DNA of 33,467 bases from Gemmatimonadota bacterium (GTDB lineage: Bacteria; Gemmatimonadota; Gemmatimonadetes; Gemmatimonadales; Gemmatimonadaceae). The position numbers and the translations under genes were made by a program. Positions 8,229 through 26,811 of this stretch are shown piece by piece; the stretch's first letter is position 1; each line of letters begins with the position of its first letter. The notes below the pieces were generated by a model. That model saw only the letters and a list, made by a program, of their open reading frames with translations, was not told the origin of the DNA and did not search any database. Location: the NCBI GenBank assembly GCA_003171215.1, contig PMYN01000028.1, positions 12,450 through 45,916 on the forward strand, in the 5' to 3' direction.

Positions 8229-8462
8229 GTGCCGAGAATTGCTTCAGCCAAGAAGAACATGCGCAAGTCGCGCGCAGCCGCCGTGCGCAATCGCGCGCAG
8301 CGCGCCGCACTGCGCACTGCAGTCAAGCACGCCAAGGCCGCGGGCTCGACGCCCGACGCCAAGAAGGCCGCGACCAAGCTGCTCGATCGCGCCGCCCGGA
8401 AGGGGCTGATCCATCCGAACAACGCCGCGCGCCACAAGAGCAAGGTGGCAAGAACGAAGTAG
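8229..8462 (+). CDS. rpsT: 30S ribosomal protein S20
   Basis: S20 binds 16S rRNA early in small-subunit assembly. The 77-residue, Lys/Arg/Ala-rich product starts PRIASAKKNMRKSRAAAVRN and ends with KGLIHPNNAARHKSKV, both diagnostic of S20, and its length matches bacterial S20 (about 80-90). The GTG at 8229 is chosen because S20 proteins start immediately before this motif; AAGAG lies about 9 nt upstream. The upstream in-frame extension to 8094 overlaps the promoter and is not coding. The gene is monocistronic: promoter at 8094-8122, perfect terminator at 8498-8529. It is flanked at its stop by a heptamer repeat array. Confidence 0.96.
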   Translation: MPRIASAKKNMRKSRAAAVRNRAQRAALRTAVKHAKAAGSTPDAKKAATKLLDRAARKGLIHPNNAARHKSKVARTK

Positions 8463-8490
8463 GCAGACGGCAGAAGGCGGACGGCAGCAA
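8463..8490. repeat. Heptamer array, GCAGACG class, beginning right after the rpsT stop
   Basis: Four consecutive 7-nt units (GCAGACG, GCAGAAG, GCGGACG, GCAGCAA) begin at the base after the TAG of rpsT. The array is imperfectly complementary to the array at 8535-8562 on the other side of the terminator, so transcripts could extend the terminator hairpin. Confidence 0.85.
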
Positions 8491-8497
8491 AGGAAAG

Positions 8498-8529
8498 GGG
8501 GCCGCGCAGAACGCGCGGCCCCTTCTTTT
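8498..8529 (+). terminator. Rho-independent terminator of rpsT
   Basis: A perfect 10-bp stem (GGGGCCGCGC at 8498-8507 with GCGCGGCCCC at 8513-8522), loop AGAAC, is followed by TTCTTTT. The T-run is on the plus strand, matching rpsT. The minus-strand gene ending at 8562 converges on it, but the opposite side has only a short T-tract. Confidence 0.92.
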
Positions 8530-8534
8530 CCTGT

Positions 8535-8562
8535 CGTCTATCGTCTGTCGTCTGCCGTCTGT
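8535..8562. repeat. Heptamer array, CGTCTGY class, inverted relative to 8463-8490
   Basis: Four consecutive units: CGTCTAT, CGTCTGT, CGTCTGC, CGTCTGT. The last base is shared with the stop codon (TAA on the minus strand, 8564-8562) of the convergent coiled-coil gene. The whole gap between the two stop codons is therefore array, terminator, inverted array. Confidence 0.85.
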
Positions 8563-9461
8563 TAAAACGCCGCCAACTCCCCCCCGCACCGCTCGCAGTA
8601 CCACTCGGTCGGATAGTTCAGCGTGCCGCACTCCTGGCACTTCAGCGACTTCACCGCTTCCGACGAGCGCGGCGTCGCGTGGCCGAACGTTCCCGATGGA
8701 CGGTTCGGCCTCTCGTCGTCGGTGCCGCGCGGCCCCGCAGGCCCCTCGGGAATCTCGGGCGTGGCGAACAACTCCGGGGTCGATGGTCGTGCCGGAACCG
8801 AAGCCGGCGCGGGCGCGGGCGCGGACGCCGCTTCGGCAATCGGCCCGGACGTCTGCCCCGACGGCCGCTTCTCCACCGGAACGCTTGCCCGCGCCGACGG
8901 CCGCTCGCCCGTCGGCGGCTCGACAATCACCGGCGCAGGAGTGTTCGAGTACGGCGTGCTCCGCCCCAGCACCGAACGCAGGAACGCGATGTCGTCGACG
9001 TCGCGCGTCGGTTCGCCGCCGGCCGGCGGCTCCGCTTCGCTGAGCAGCGCGCGCAGGGTGTCGAGCTCGCGCTGGATGCCCTCGCGCTCTCCGGACAGAT
9101 CCGCAATCGCGCCGTCGAGCTTGCCGCGCAGCTTGTCCCACTCCTTGCCGGCGAACTCGCCCACCGCCGCGCGCAGTTCGGCTTCCGCCCGCTCGTCGGT
9201 GCGCTCGGCGATCTGACGTTCGAGCTTGGCCAGCGACTCCTCGAGCTCCGTCGCGAGCGCATGCACCGCTCCTGACTCGGAAGAGAGCTTCTGCTGCGCC
9301 TCGCCGAGGCGTGCCGAGTAATCGCGGTGCACCTTCACGAAGACGTGACTCGGTGTGCTGTCCTTTCGCGCATCGAGCTGCGCGAGCCACTGCTCGTACT
9401 TGCGCCGCTCCGCGAGCAGCACCTCGATTTCCTGGATCTGTTTCGTGCGCGCGTCGGTCAT
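8562..9461 (-). CDS. Coiled-coil protein with C-terminal zinc ribbon, function unknown
   Basis: I do not recognise a named family for this 299-residue protein. Residues 1-150 are heptad-rich, charged helix (LLAERRKYEQWLAQLD, EESLAKLERQIAERTDERAEAE), predicted coiled coil. Residues about 150-265 are Pro/Ala/Ser-rich and probably disordered. The extreme C-terminus is a rubredoxin-like zinc ribbon with C275-x2-C278-x10-C289-x2-C292. There is no signal peptide. The ATG at 9461 overlaps the aldolase stop as ATGA, so it is the last gene of the pyrR-pyrB-pyrC-aldolase unit, although nothing in it suggests pyrimidine metabolism. Similar architectures are often scaffolds or nucleic-acid-associated proteins; that is only a guess. 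Confidence 0.75.
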   Translation of the reverse strand: MTDARTKQIQEIEVLLAERRKYEQWLAQLDARKDSTPSHVFVKVHRDYSARLGEAQQKLSSESGAVHALATELEESLAKLERQIAERTDERAEAELRAAVGEFAGKEWDKLRGKLDGAIADLSGEREGIQRELDTLRALLSEAEPPAGGEPTRDVDDIAFLRSVLGRSTPYSNTPAPVIVEPPTGERPSARASVPVEKRPSGQTSGPIAEAASAPAPAPASVPARPSTPELFATPEIPEGPAGPRGTDDERPNRPSGTFGHATPRSSEAVKSLKCQECGTLNYPTEWYCERCGGELAAF

Positions 9462-20736: not shown

Positions 20737-20780
20737 CGGAAAACCCTGCGTTCGGAGAGTGAAAAACGAGTAATCCGTCG

Positions 20781-20827
20781 TTGGTCGTCGGCGATCGGAC
20801 TAGAGCCAATGACCAATGACCAAATAC
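20781..20827. repeat. Heptamer repeat, CAATGAC/TTGGTCR class
   Basis: Three in-phase units CAATGAC, CAATGAC, CAAATAC occupy 20807-20827. A degenerate inverted counterpart TTGGTCG TCGGCGA TCGG lies at 20781-20798, with ACTAGAG between. The same heptamer occurs at 29703-29723. It sits in the gap between the tRNA promoter and tadA. Confidence 0.7.
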
Positions 20828-23510: not shown

Positions 23511-26099
23511 CTACTCCGCCTTCTGGAAGTCGAGTGCGGCCCCGCGCACCACGGCGCGCACGCGATCGCCGTCCTTGAACTTCCCCTCGAGGACGGCCAT
23601 CGCCAGCGGATTCTGCACCAGCCGCTGGATGGCGCGCTTCAGCGGCCGCGCGCCGAACGACGGGTCGTAGCCGTCGCGCGCGAGCAGCTTCTTGGCCTCG
23701 GGCGTGAACTCGAGCGTGATCTTCTTCTCGGCGAGCAGCTTGTCCATGCGCGCGAGCTGAAGATCGACGATGTGCTCGATGTCCGCCTCGCCGAGCGGAT
23801 GGAACACGATGATATCGTCGACGCGGTTCAGGAACTCCGGCTTGAAGTGCGCGCGCAACGCCTGGGTCACCATCGTCTCGACGAGCGCCCAGTCCTCGGT
23901 GCCCTGCTCGAGGATCGCCGTTCCACCGATATTCGAGGTCATGATGACCACGGTGTTGCGGAAGTCCACCGTGCGGCCCTGTGAATCGGTGAGCCGCCCG
24001 TCGTCGAGAATCTGCAGGAGGATGTTGAACACGTCGGCGTGCGCCTTCTCGATCTCGTCGAACAGGAGCACGGCGTACGGGCGGCGGCGGATCGCCTCGG
24101 TGAGCTGGCCGCCCTCCTCGTAGCCGACGTAGCCGGGCGGCGCGCCGATGAGCCTCGCGACCGCGTGCTTCTCCATGTACTCCGACATGTCGATGCGCAC
24201 CATCGCCTGTTCGTCGTCGAACAGGAACTCGGCGAGCGCGCGCGCGGTTTCCGTCTTGCCGACGCCGGTGGGCCCGAGGAAGATGAACGAGCCGATCGGA
24301 CGGTTCGGATCCTGGAGCCCCGCGCGCGAGCGCCGCACCGCGTTCGCGACGGCGTGCACGGCTTCGGGCTGCCCCACCACGCGGCGCGCGAGCTCGGCGT
24401 CGAGCTTCGTGAGCCGCTCCTTCTCGCTCTCCATCATTCGCGTGACCGGAATCCCGGTCCACTGTGCGACGATGTCGGCGATGTCGTCCGCGCCGACCTC
24501 CTCCTTGAGGAAGCGCGCGCCGCCCGACTGCTGCGAGGCGAGCTTCGACTCCGTGTCGCGCAGCTCCGCCTCGAGCTTCGGCACCGTGCCGTACTGGATC
24601 TCGGCCGCCTTCCCGAGATCTCCGGTGCGCGTCGCCCGCTCGACTTCGGTGCGGGCCTCTTCGATCCGCTGCTTGAGCTTGCCGACTTCGCCGAGCGCGT
24701 TCTTCTCGTTCTGCCAGGTCGCCCGCATCGACGACGCCCGCTCCTTCAACTCCGCGAGTTCGCGTTCGATGACCGCGCGGCGCTCCTTCGACGCCGCGTC
24801 CTTCTCCTTCTGCAGCGCCTGCCGTTCGATCTCGAGCTGCACCACGCGGCGTTCCACCTCGTCGATCACCTGCGGGAGGGAGTCGATCTCGATGCGCAGG
24901 CGGCTGGCCGCCTCGTCGACGAGGTCGATGGCCTTGTCCGGCAGGAAGCGGTCGCCGATGTAGCGGTTGGAGAGCGTCGCGGCGGCGACGATAGCCCCGT
25001 CGGTGATGCGCACGCCGTGATGCGATTCGTAGCGCTCCTTGAGCCCGCGCAGGATCGCGATCGTGTTCTCGACCGTCGGCTCGCCCACGTACACCGGCTG
25101 GAAGCGCCGCTCGAGCGCGGCGTCCTTCTCGATGTTCTTGCGGTATTCGTCGAGCGTGGTCGCGCCGACGACGCGCAGCTCCCCGCGCGCGAGCATCGGC
25201 TTCAGCATGTTGCCCGCGTCCATCGAGCCCTCGGCCTTTCCCGCGCCGACGAGCGTGTGCATCTCGTCGATGAACATCACGAACTGTCCTTCGGCGCTCG
25301 TAATCTCCTTGAGCACGGACTTGAGGCGCTCCTCGAACTCGCCGCGGAACTTCGCGCCGGCGATGAGCGCGCCGAGGTCGAGCGACACGAGCCGCTTGTT
25401 CTTGAGCGATTCGGGGACGTCGCCGTTCACGATGCGCTGGGCGAGCCCTTCGGCGATGGCGGTCTTGCCGACCCCGGGCTCGCCGATCAGCACCGGATTG
25501 TTCTTCGTGCGGCGCGACAGCACCTGGATCACGCGGCGGATCTCCTCGTCACGGCCGATGACCGGATCGAGCTTCCCCTTCCTCGCCATCTCGGTGAGGT
25601 CGCGCGTGAACTTCTGCAGCGCCTGGTACTGGTTCTCGGGATTCTGGTCGGTCACCTGGTGCGCGCCGCGCACCGACTTCACCGCGTCGGCGAGCCCCTT
25701 CGGGGTGACGCCCGCGTCGCGCAACAGCGCGACGCTGTCGGCGCCCTTGGTGCCCGCGAGCGCGAGCAGCAAGTGCTCGGTCGACACGAACTCGTCGCCG
25801 AACGCCTTGGCGAACTTCTCGGCTCCGTCGACGACGTTCGACAGTTCGCGCGAGAGCGTCGGACTCGCGTCACTCTGCTTGGGGTAGCGCGCGATCTCGC
25901 GGTCGATCGCCTGCGCCAGGGCCGGAATCGCGACGCCCAGTTTCTGGAGGATGGGCGCGACGATGCCTTCGTCCTGGTCGAGGAGCACGCGGAGCAGGTG
26001 CGCATCGTGCACGAGCGGATTTCCTTCGCGACGCGCCAGCGTGAGGGCGTCGTTCAGGGCGTCGGAGCTCTTTACGGTGAGGCGATCGGGATTGAGCAT
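23511..26099 (-). CDS. clpB: ATP-dependent disaggregase chaperone ClpB
   Basis: ClpB extracts and refolds aggregated proteins with DnaK. The 862-residue protein has the N-domain (two Clp repeats; [24 protein letters not shown]), the first AAA+ domain with Walker A GEPGVGKT at 206-213, a long coiled-coil middle domain, and the second AAA+ domain with Walker A GPTGVGKT at 609-616. [16 protein letters not shown] and the C-terminal [18 protein letters not shown] are present. The residue numbering of the first Walker A equals that of well-studied ClpB. The ATG at 26099 matches the family start and has no obvious ribosome-binding site. No CIRCE operator or clear heat-shock promoter is visible in the leader, which is filled by a heptamer array (26104-26164). 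It converges on the peptidase gene, 52 bp apart. Confidence 0.96.
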
Positions 26100-26103
26100 G
26101 GGA

Positions 26104-26164
26104 TCAGACGGCAGAGGGCAGACGGCGGACGGCAGCTGGGCGATCAGACGGCAGATGACAGCGG
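26104..26164. repeat. Heptamer array, GCAGACG class, in the clpB leader
   Basis: In-phase units TCAGACG, GCAGAGG, GCAGACG, GCGGACG, GCAGCTG (26104-26138) are followed after a phase shift by TCAGACG, GCAGATG, ACAGCGG (26144-26164). It starts 4 bp upstream of the clpB ATG and is inverted relative to the array at 26259-26312. Confidence 0.8.
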
Positions 26165-26258
26165 CAAGAGTGATACCAAGCAAAGTACGTCGTTCTGGCG
26201 TGGTCGCTGGCAGGATTTTCCGTACATCGCGCCTCGGCGGCACGCTGGTCTTATCCGC

Positions 26259-26312
26259 CGTCAGTCGTCCGCCGTCTCGTCTGCCGTCCGCCGTCCGTGG
26301 TCTGCCGTCTGA
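26259..26312. repeat. Heptamer array, CGTCTGC class, abutting a terminator
   Basis: Units CGTCAGT, CGTCCGC, a truncated CGTCT, CGTCTGC, CGTCCGC, CGTCCGT, GGTCTGC, CGTCTGA run without gap up to the left arm of the hairpin at 26312. It is the inverse of the array at 26104-26164; about 95 bp of unique sequence separates them. Confidence 0.8.
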
Positions 26313-26364
26313 AGTAGCACGCAAAAACGCCCGGACATCGTCCGGGCGTTTTTGCGTGCTACTT
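26312..26364 (-). terminator. Perfect 25-bp hairpin terminator containing the stop codon of the upstream gene
   Basis: The left arm 26312-26336 is exactly complementary to 26340-26364, with a 3-nt loop ATC. Each arm includes an A5/T5 run beside the GC-rich inner stem CGCCCGGAC/GTCCGGGCG, so it can end transcripts from either direction. The last Lys codon and TAG of the minus-strand gene (26359-26364) lie inside the arm. Confidence 0.88.
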
Positions 26365-26811
26365 CATCACGATCATCTTGTTCAGCAACTTCTGTCCATC
26401 GACCTCGAGCACGTATACGTACACTCCCGAGGCTGCTTCCTTTGACGTGTTGAGATAGTTCCCGTTCCAGTACGCGATGTACTGGCCACAGGGCACCAAC
26501 ACGTTCTGCAGCGGCTGACCCCCTGCCACGTTGCCCGCTCCGCCCTGAATCACCGGAACCGCGACGAGCTGCATCAGCACGTTGTAGATGCGCAGCGTCA
26601 CCTTGTACTGATGACTTGGGTCCGTGCAGGTCGGATATCCTCCGATACTGAACGGGATCCTCGTCTCCGGATTGAACGGATTCGGGTAATTCTGTTCCAG
26701 CTTGGCAACCGGACTTTTCTGTGCAGTCGCCGTACCGGCCTGCGCAGTTCCAACTCGTGGCATGAGAATGAGGGTCAGCACCACGCACAGTGCCGACCAA
26801 CGAAACCTCAT
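26359..26811 (-). CDS. Secreted stand-alone T9SS/FlgD-type C-terminal domain protein
   Basis: The 150-residue product has a clear signal peptide (about 1-23, ending GTAQA). It is followed almost directly by [19 protein letters not shown], the hallmark of C-terminal sorting-type (FlgD Ig-like) domains. It ends with [23 protein letters not shown]-like strands, the usual very C-terminus. Such domains normally sit at the end of large secreted proteins; here there is no cargo domain. Two Cys may form a disulfide. GGAG lies 6 nt before the ATG at 26811, and a near-consensus promoter lies about 110 bp upstream. Base composition is visibly less GC-rich than in neighbouring genes, which may reflect high expression or transfer. 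The role is unknown. Confidence 0.82.

Follow-up and report, generated by a model that had tools for sequence, protein, structure and literature searches.

Opposed heptamer arrays around the rpsT terminator of a Gemmatimonadota bacterium belong to a genome-wide family of inverted pairs whose build matches the arms of S23 genes

The window, a stretch of 33,467 nucleotides from a Gemmatimonadota genome, contains rpsT and a convergent gene, and the gap between their stop codons holds a terminator enclosed by two opposed heptamer arrays. From the best relatives of the convergent gene, the source is taken to be a metagenome-assembled genome (MAG) of an uncultured member of Gemmatimonadaceae. The genes and features are:

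8229..8462, + strand: rpsT, ribosomal protein S20 (TIGR00029, E 6.6e-17; stop TAG 8460-8462)
8463..8490, + strand: left arm, array of GCAGACG-type (dialect A) heptamers running outward from rpsT (from the letters and Tandem Repeats Finder)
8491..8530, + strand: rpsT terminator, with a stem at 8498-8507/8513-8522 and a T-rich tract at 8523-8529; this is the part of the locus that is conserved as its core
8531..8562, - strand: right arm, opposed heptamer array running outward from the convergent gene, its last base shared with the stop codon
8562..9461, - strand: convergent gene, a 299-aa protein with a zinc-ribbon-like C-terminal end (weak PF00641 match, below the Pfam cut-off)

Specifically, the terminator has the form of an intrinsic one, with a G+C-rich hairpin after the stop codon followed by a T-run (TTCTTTTC), and it is usable from both strands because its opposite side is A-rich. 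The opposed arrays with the rpsT terminator between them, as described in an earlier note on this DNA, proved to be real, and both were detected by Tandem Repeats Finder. That note had counted four GCAGACG-type heptamers on the left; three are good (8463-8469 GCAGACG, 8470-8476 GCAGAAG, 8477-8483 GCGGACG), whereas the fourth is degenerate (8484-8490 GCAGCAA). The right-arm heptamers occupy 8535-8562 and read CGTCTAT CGTCTGT CGTCTGC CGTCTGT. The reported fit of the arrays to the stop codons was borne out, with the left array beginning at 8463, directly after the TAG, and the right array ending on T8562, with which the convergent stop TTA (8562-8564) begins. The arms can also pair into one stem, as had been proposed: RNA of the gap folds as a single hairpin (-73.6 kcal/mol, z -9.2 against 200 dinucleotide shuffles). 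Membership of an Rfam family was rejected, as a search returned only chance matches, all far below gathering scores and mostly to plant microRNA precursors, which we attribute to the long stem.

Further pairs of opposed arrays, hereafter doublets, lie elsewhere in the window:

26105..26166, + strand: left arm of a second dialect-A doublet, just upstream of a clpB-like gene (23511-26099, - strand)
26254..26311, - strand: right arm of the same doublet, the pair folding with z -8.1
20772..20823, no strand assigned: weak doublet of dialect D (TTGGTCR), with a tRNA-like stretch on one side and a deaminase gene on the other, its right arm alone above the array threshold and its left arm seen by eye

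Adjoining the second dialect-A doublet is a long perfect palindrome (AAGTAGCACGCAAAAACGCCCGGACATCGTCCGGGCGTTTTTGCGTGCTACTT, 26312-26366), which overlaps the stop of a predicted gene (26359-26811, - strand) and is probably a bidirectional terminator.

The earlier note had allowed that related strains might lack arrays next to terminators, which would make the association chance; relatives turned out to carry arrays at this very terminator. L071, L073, and L074 retain GGGCCGCGC..GCGCGGCCC, the core of the terminator, in identical or slightly altered form. Around the rpsT terminator, L071 has opposed GAAGATG arrays (AAGATGG/AAGATCG), L073 has opposed GAAGCCG arrays (AAGCCGG), and L072, in which the left side is off the contig, has a right-hand array of GAAGCCC/GAAGACC (AAGCCCG/AAGACCG). 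In this comparison the fold of the gap reached z -11.4 in the source genome (G000), -10.8 in L071, and -9.4 in L073, and z was -4.2 in L074, where the gap is without arrays. The same core thus stands between different heptamers in different species: the core is retained, and the two arms change in concert. The gap of distant relatives mostly contains a bare terminator. Opposed arrays of 8- or 9-base units were observed around the same terminator in L092, L109, and L111, which are more distant relatives, and the period is therefore not always 7.

The arrays of the rpsT gap are neither chance nor unique, and form part of a genome-wide family. The genome search suggested in the earlier note recovered CAGACGGCAGACGG (at most one mismatch) 204 times in the 4.14-Mb genome; the unit CAGACGG formed 56 arrays of score at least 18 in 739 kb, whereas six scrambled versions with its base composition formed 0-3 each. 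A reversed-pattern control was invalid because the heptamer is mirror-symmetric, and scrambled units and a unit-free lag test were used in its place. The latter covered all lags from 3 to 15, with genes called by script, and lag 7 (with its multiple 14) was the sole strongly enriched lag. In 1.03 Mb of the source genome, about a quarter of which was taken regardless of arrays and most of the remainder picked for holding them, there were 47 lag-7 runs per 100 kb of intergenic DNA versus 1.6 in coding DNA, such that period-7 arrays were about 30 times denser between genes; 0.30 Mb of the relative G118 gave 65 versus 1.9. Several array dialects were recognized in the source genome, namely A (RGACGGC), B (AGCCGGA), C (AGAYSGA), and D (TTGGTCR). 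Orientation was opposed in 44 of 50 adjacent array pairs of the 1.03-Mb sample, and one dialect was common to both arms in 42 of these 44 (0.35 expected; P ~5e-17).

Of the 3' sides, 69% had the outer edge of a doublet no more than 10 bp from a stop codon, as against 38% for random placement within the same intergenic gaps, and in several cases the stop codon was supplied by the first array unit itself (TAGACGG); on 5' sides, 24% of outer edges were within 10 bp of a start. Doublets were present in 9 of 66 convergent and 5 of 106 divergent gaps. The proposed link to a terminator, however, did not survive as a rule, since most doublets have a short loop between the arms (median ~12 bp, at least 30 bp in 12 of 44) and some sit between divergent genes. 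These loop lengths and divergent loci rule out a terminator as the doublets' common factor, and the link to it is incidental.

Variants of these arrays were also noted in other genomes. At L140-L150 (G069, genus g22), dialect-A arms form the ends of a unit some 190-260 bp long, the interior of which contains a GGAACCACAG motif and a pair of G+C-rich hairpins, each T-rich on its outer side; this looks like a more uniform, MITE-like version. At L303 and L304 (G005), arrays are located at contig ends, and short-read MAGs may therefore break at such repeats and undercount them.

Some opposed pairs in the source genome enclose a gene. A dialect-A pair (C13:4393-5037) surrounds a 23S_rRNA_IVP (PF05635) gene, hereafter S23, at C13:4601, a dialect-B pair (C34:8110-8632) surrounds another at C34:8263, and a third S23 gene, at C24:16796, has D-like arms. 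The best PDB match of the C34 protein was 2gsc, XCC0516 of Xanthomonas campestris (1e-21), and it also weakly matched the Avd family; we know of no catalytic activity of S23. Dialects A, B, and D each flank an S23 gene and also make up doublets without an ORF, and G000 yielded no S23 gene with arms of dialect C. In the 1.03-Mb sample, opposed arrays of the same dialect stood on both sides of three of five S23 genes versus none of 863 others (Fisher 9e-8), the remaining two S23 genes tested in G000 being without arms of families A-D. Across 33 S23 loci, mostly best matches per genome, with script-called genes and most of the first G000 contigs picked for holding arrays, 28 had inverted repeats in their flanks that scored higher than the 99th percentile of mismatched-flank controls (median 30.5 versus 10), and most of the repeats above control were period-7 arrays, each with its own word. 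Additionally, 24 of the 27 PF05635 loci of G000, G118, and G119 scored 15 or more.

The source genome's own S23-arm units formed 65, 28, and 26 arrays in it, and 28 foreign S23-arm units formed 0-12, most of them 0; a few foreign G-rich words reach up to 12, perhaps because weaker S23 loci of G000 carry similar words. Intergenic lag-7 runs numbered 19 in ~286 kb sampled from S23-bearing relatives versus 0 in ~388 kb of S23-free ones, the latter being five genomes, two of them in the source genome's genus. Genomes with many arrays and few S23 genes are nonetheless a real counter-example to the link. Specifically, genus g29 has many dialect-A sites and almost no S23 (G075, 204 sites and no S23 gene; G089, 112 and one; G054, 90 and one), so that either the arrays can persist without S23, or these genomes once had S23 genes and lost them, or such genes were overlooked. 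Conversely, G004 has eight S23 genes, yet no lag-7 run was found in 80 kb. A separate observation concerns G000:C33:35883 (L282) and G019:C11:21050 (L154), where two congeneric species apparently carry an S23 insertion at a shared position; its arms are clear in L154 and decayed in L282, which makes them a natural pair for dating.

Plasmid records served as an outgroup for S23 flanks outside the family. Opposed arms were present at 18 of 20 S23 loci on cyanobacterial, Azospirillum, and Gemmatirosa plasmids, not all of which are independent, as L341 and L342 are the same insertion. These loci often follow directly on the stop codon of the preceding gene, as between cas10 and cmr3 or between cas6 and cas4, and the Azospirillum S23 is inside a 23S rRNA gene, with arms AGAGGAC/GGATGAC. 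Loci from a search with a made-up S23-like consensus, which gave wider recall, included Riemerella (Bacteroidota) and a second Nostoc locus, both with opposed arms, and an Oscillatoria locus at which the flank test found none. Under a stricter cut, with flanks taken from exactly the S23 stop, 15 of 23 loci were above the 95th percentile, most of the loss falling on loci at which the S23 ORF runs into the right arm. Moreover, plasmids of Nostoc edaphicum and Pseudanabaena carry ORF-less arrays with the word of the resident S23. In total, S23 genes flanked by opposed, mostly heptameric arrays were observed in Gemmatimonadota, Cyanobacteriota, Bacteroidota, and the Azospirillum 23S rRNA insertion.

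Two side observations came from the same plasmids. At L338, L346, and L348, S23 genes with opposed repeat arms lie between cas genes, and the arms suggest that these genes came in by insertion and do not encode Cas proteins; the presence of 23S_rRNA_IVP genes at cas loci has been noticed earlier, with repeats unmentioned in the part of that source available to us. The Anabaena sp. 90 plasmid pANA02 bears a diversity-generating retroelement (RT and Avd; L357 9043-10539) besides an S23 gene.

Several known repeat systems share parts of this build. The S23-carrying intervening sequence (IVS) of Coxiella has inverted termini and tandem GACAGAT heptamers, and the same paper describes the functionality and origin of IVSs as still unclear (PMC4990558). 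As in the rpsT gap, the inverted complementary ends of such elements form a stem and, in Coxiella, heptameric tandem repeats stand at an end; unlike the rpsT gap, where a terminator is found between the arms of a feature located between two protein genes, these elements have an S23 ORF between their ends and are placed in an rRNA gene. The sister loci at C13:4601, C34:8263, and C24:16796 do have the S23 ORF between the arms. Rehm et al. 2015 (PMC4692102) described heptamers of Xanthomonas (GGGNATC) and Nostoc (GGGGA(C/T)T), with 70-75 convergent inverted pairs per Xanthomonas genome, on the coding strand near stops, including overlap with the stop, and on the non-coding strand upstream of ORFs; they reported no association with mobile elements. 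The doublets described here are likewise dispersed, intergenic, convergent, and stop-adjacent, and follow the same outward strand rule, but they contain GG at most (GCAGACG/GCGGACG) and not the G-tracts for quadruplexes. The likeness to the 7-bp STRR units of filamentous cyanobacteria (PMC2670836) raised in the earlier note is sound, as both are tandem, intergenic, and hairpin-forming, although words and phylum differ; cyanobacterial plasmid heptamers are linked with S23 in the present data. The intergenic TAACTGA heptamers of Beggiatoaceae, so far as the part of PMC4679880 available to us goes, are direct repeats, with one indirect case in the genome, unlike the opposed pairs here.

Among the rival explanations, an REP-like structure of 3' ends under selection would arise by slippage of a purine-rich word near stops and copying across the terminator hairpin; the long stems would strengthen bidirectional termination and protect mRNA, and S23 elements would merely tolerate or use them. 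The close stop-codon fit, the enclosed terminator, the high stability of the folds in three species that differ in sequence, and the somewhat higher frequency of doublets in convergent gaps all point this way. Selection for a stem alone does not, however, account for one common word, and within a genome the heptamers are found again and again at unrelated loci, including between divergent genes and around S23 ORFs, where there is no common terminator; we therefore regard this explanation as rather unlikely, if still deserving of some weight. Less plausible again, and in our view improbable, are neutral simple-sequence repeats, produced by 7-base replication slippage with palindrome correction by strand switching and no mobile partner. 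Such repeats would suit the variable copy number, the degenerate units, and the 8- and 9-base versions at the rpsT locus of L109, L111, and L092, but not the strong enrichment of lag 7 (with 14) alone or the common dialect of 42 of 44 pairs, and the idea is weakened further by the strong flanking of S23 and not of other genes.

The doublets are inverted, dispersed, and extragenic, as are REPINs (PMC3116915), which also consist of two inverted repeats per unit, form families per genome, and have a gene partner beside the same repeat, as S23 is here. That partner is the RAYT (Y1) transposase, and spread of REPIN doublets by it is very improbable: the doublets keep one dialect per family, but their arms are heptamer arrays rather than REP hairpins, and PF01797 had no match in the source genome, which is 98.8% complete and in which a RAYT partner is thus ruled out, or in G019. 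DNA uptake sequences of the Neisseria type were also rejected and seem scarcely credible. The Neisseria signal GCCGTCTGAA, which is also found in inverted terminator pairs, includes the core CCGTCTG, and GCCGTCTGAA is present where the second doublet ends on the right (about 26304-26313); the units here are nevertheless tandem, about 30 times rarer in coding DNA, and replaced by unrelated words in other dialects and in relatives.

The arms are opposed, with one dialect per locus, near gene ends and above all stop codons, and can fold into one stem; the heptamer differs between species while the terminator core stays; and genes for S23/IVP, relatives of the Avd of diversity-generating retroelements, have arms of the same build in several phyla. 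The wider family of the rpsT-gap feature is likely that of S23/IVS-type inverted-arm elements, and we consider it probable that the dispersed palindromic doublets are ORF-less relatives of these elements. A dialect would spread within a genome from such elements, with transposition, RNA-templated copying, or gene conversion with hairpin-templated strand switching as candidate routes. Once transcribed, the arms would pair into a long double-stranded stem; in the rpsT gap this would lengthen the terminator of both genes and, by analogy with IVS stems, may be a substrate of RNase III. The exact stop-to-stop fit may follow from arms existing only up to coding boundaries. An inserted element should leave the old sequence outside it, and at rpsT the terminator is inside the arms, which would speak against a unit having simply inserted there and in favor of arms growing, or being exchanged, on either side of the core; no empty/filled site pair with a target duplication, and no insertion junction, was found among the loci compared. 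A broader proposal, which we put forward tentatively as possible rather than probable, is that S23/IVP is the partner of one widespread repeat class, in which the heptamer arms of each element yield ORF-less doublets of its dialect at gene ends, perhaps through RNA as in Avd-containing retroelements, with STRR, the Xanthomonas GGGAATC pairs, and ribosomal intervening sequences all being outcomes.

Most single components of this picture are known, and as far as the literature searched extends, the association across phyla is new: no paper linking S23 arms with heptamer repeats was found there, most subscription journals lying outside its scope. The flanking of S23 genes by opposed, mostly heptameric arrays across phyla is the main new result. 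STRR, the Xanthomonas pairs, and S23-carrying intervening sequences have long been known without an agreed function or way of moving, and if S23 arms and dispersed heptamer pairs belong together, two old puzzles become one. That link, if true, is testable in culturable strains, and intergenic hairpins of such build would be read as members of a dialect family rather than as individual terminators.
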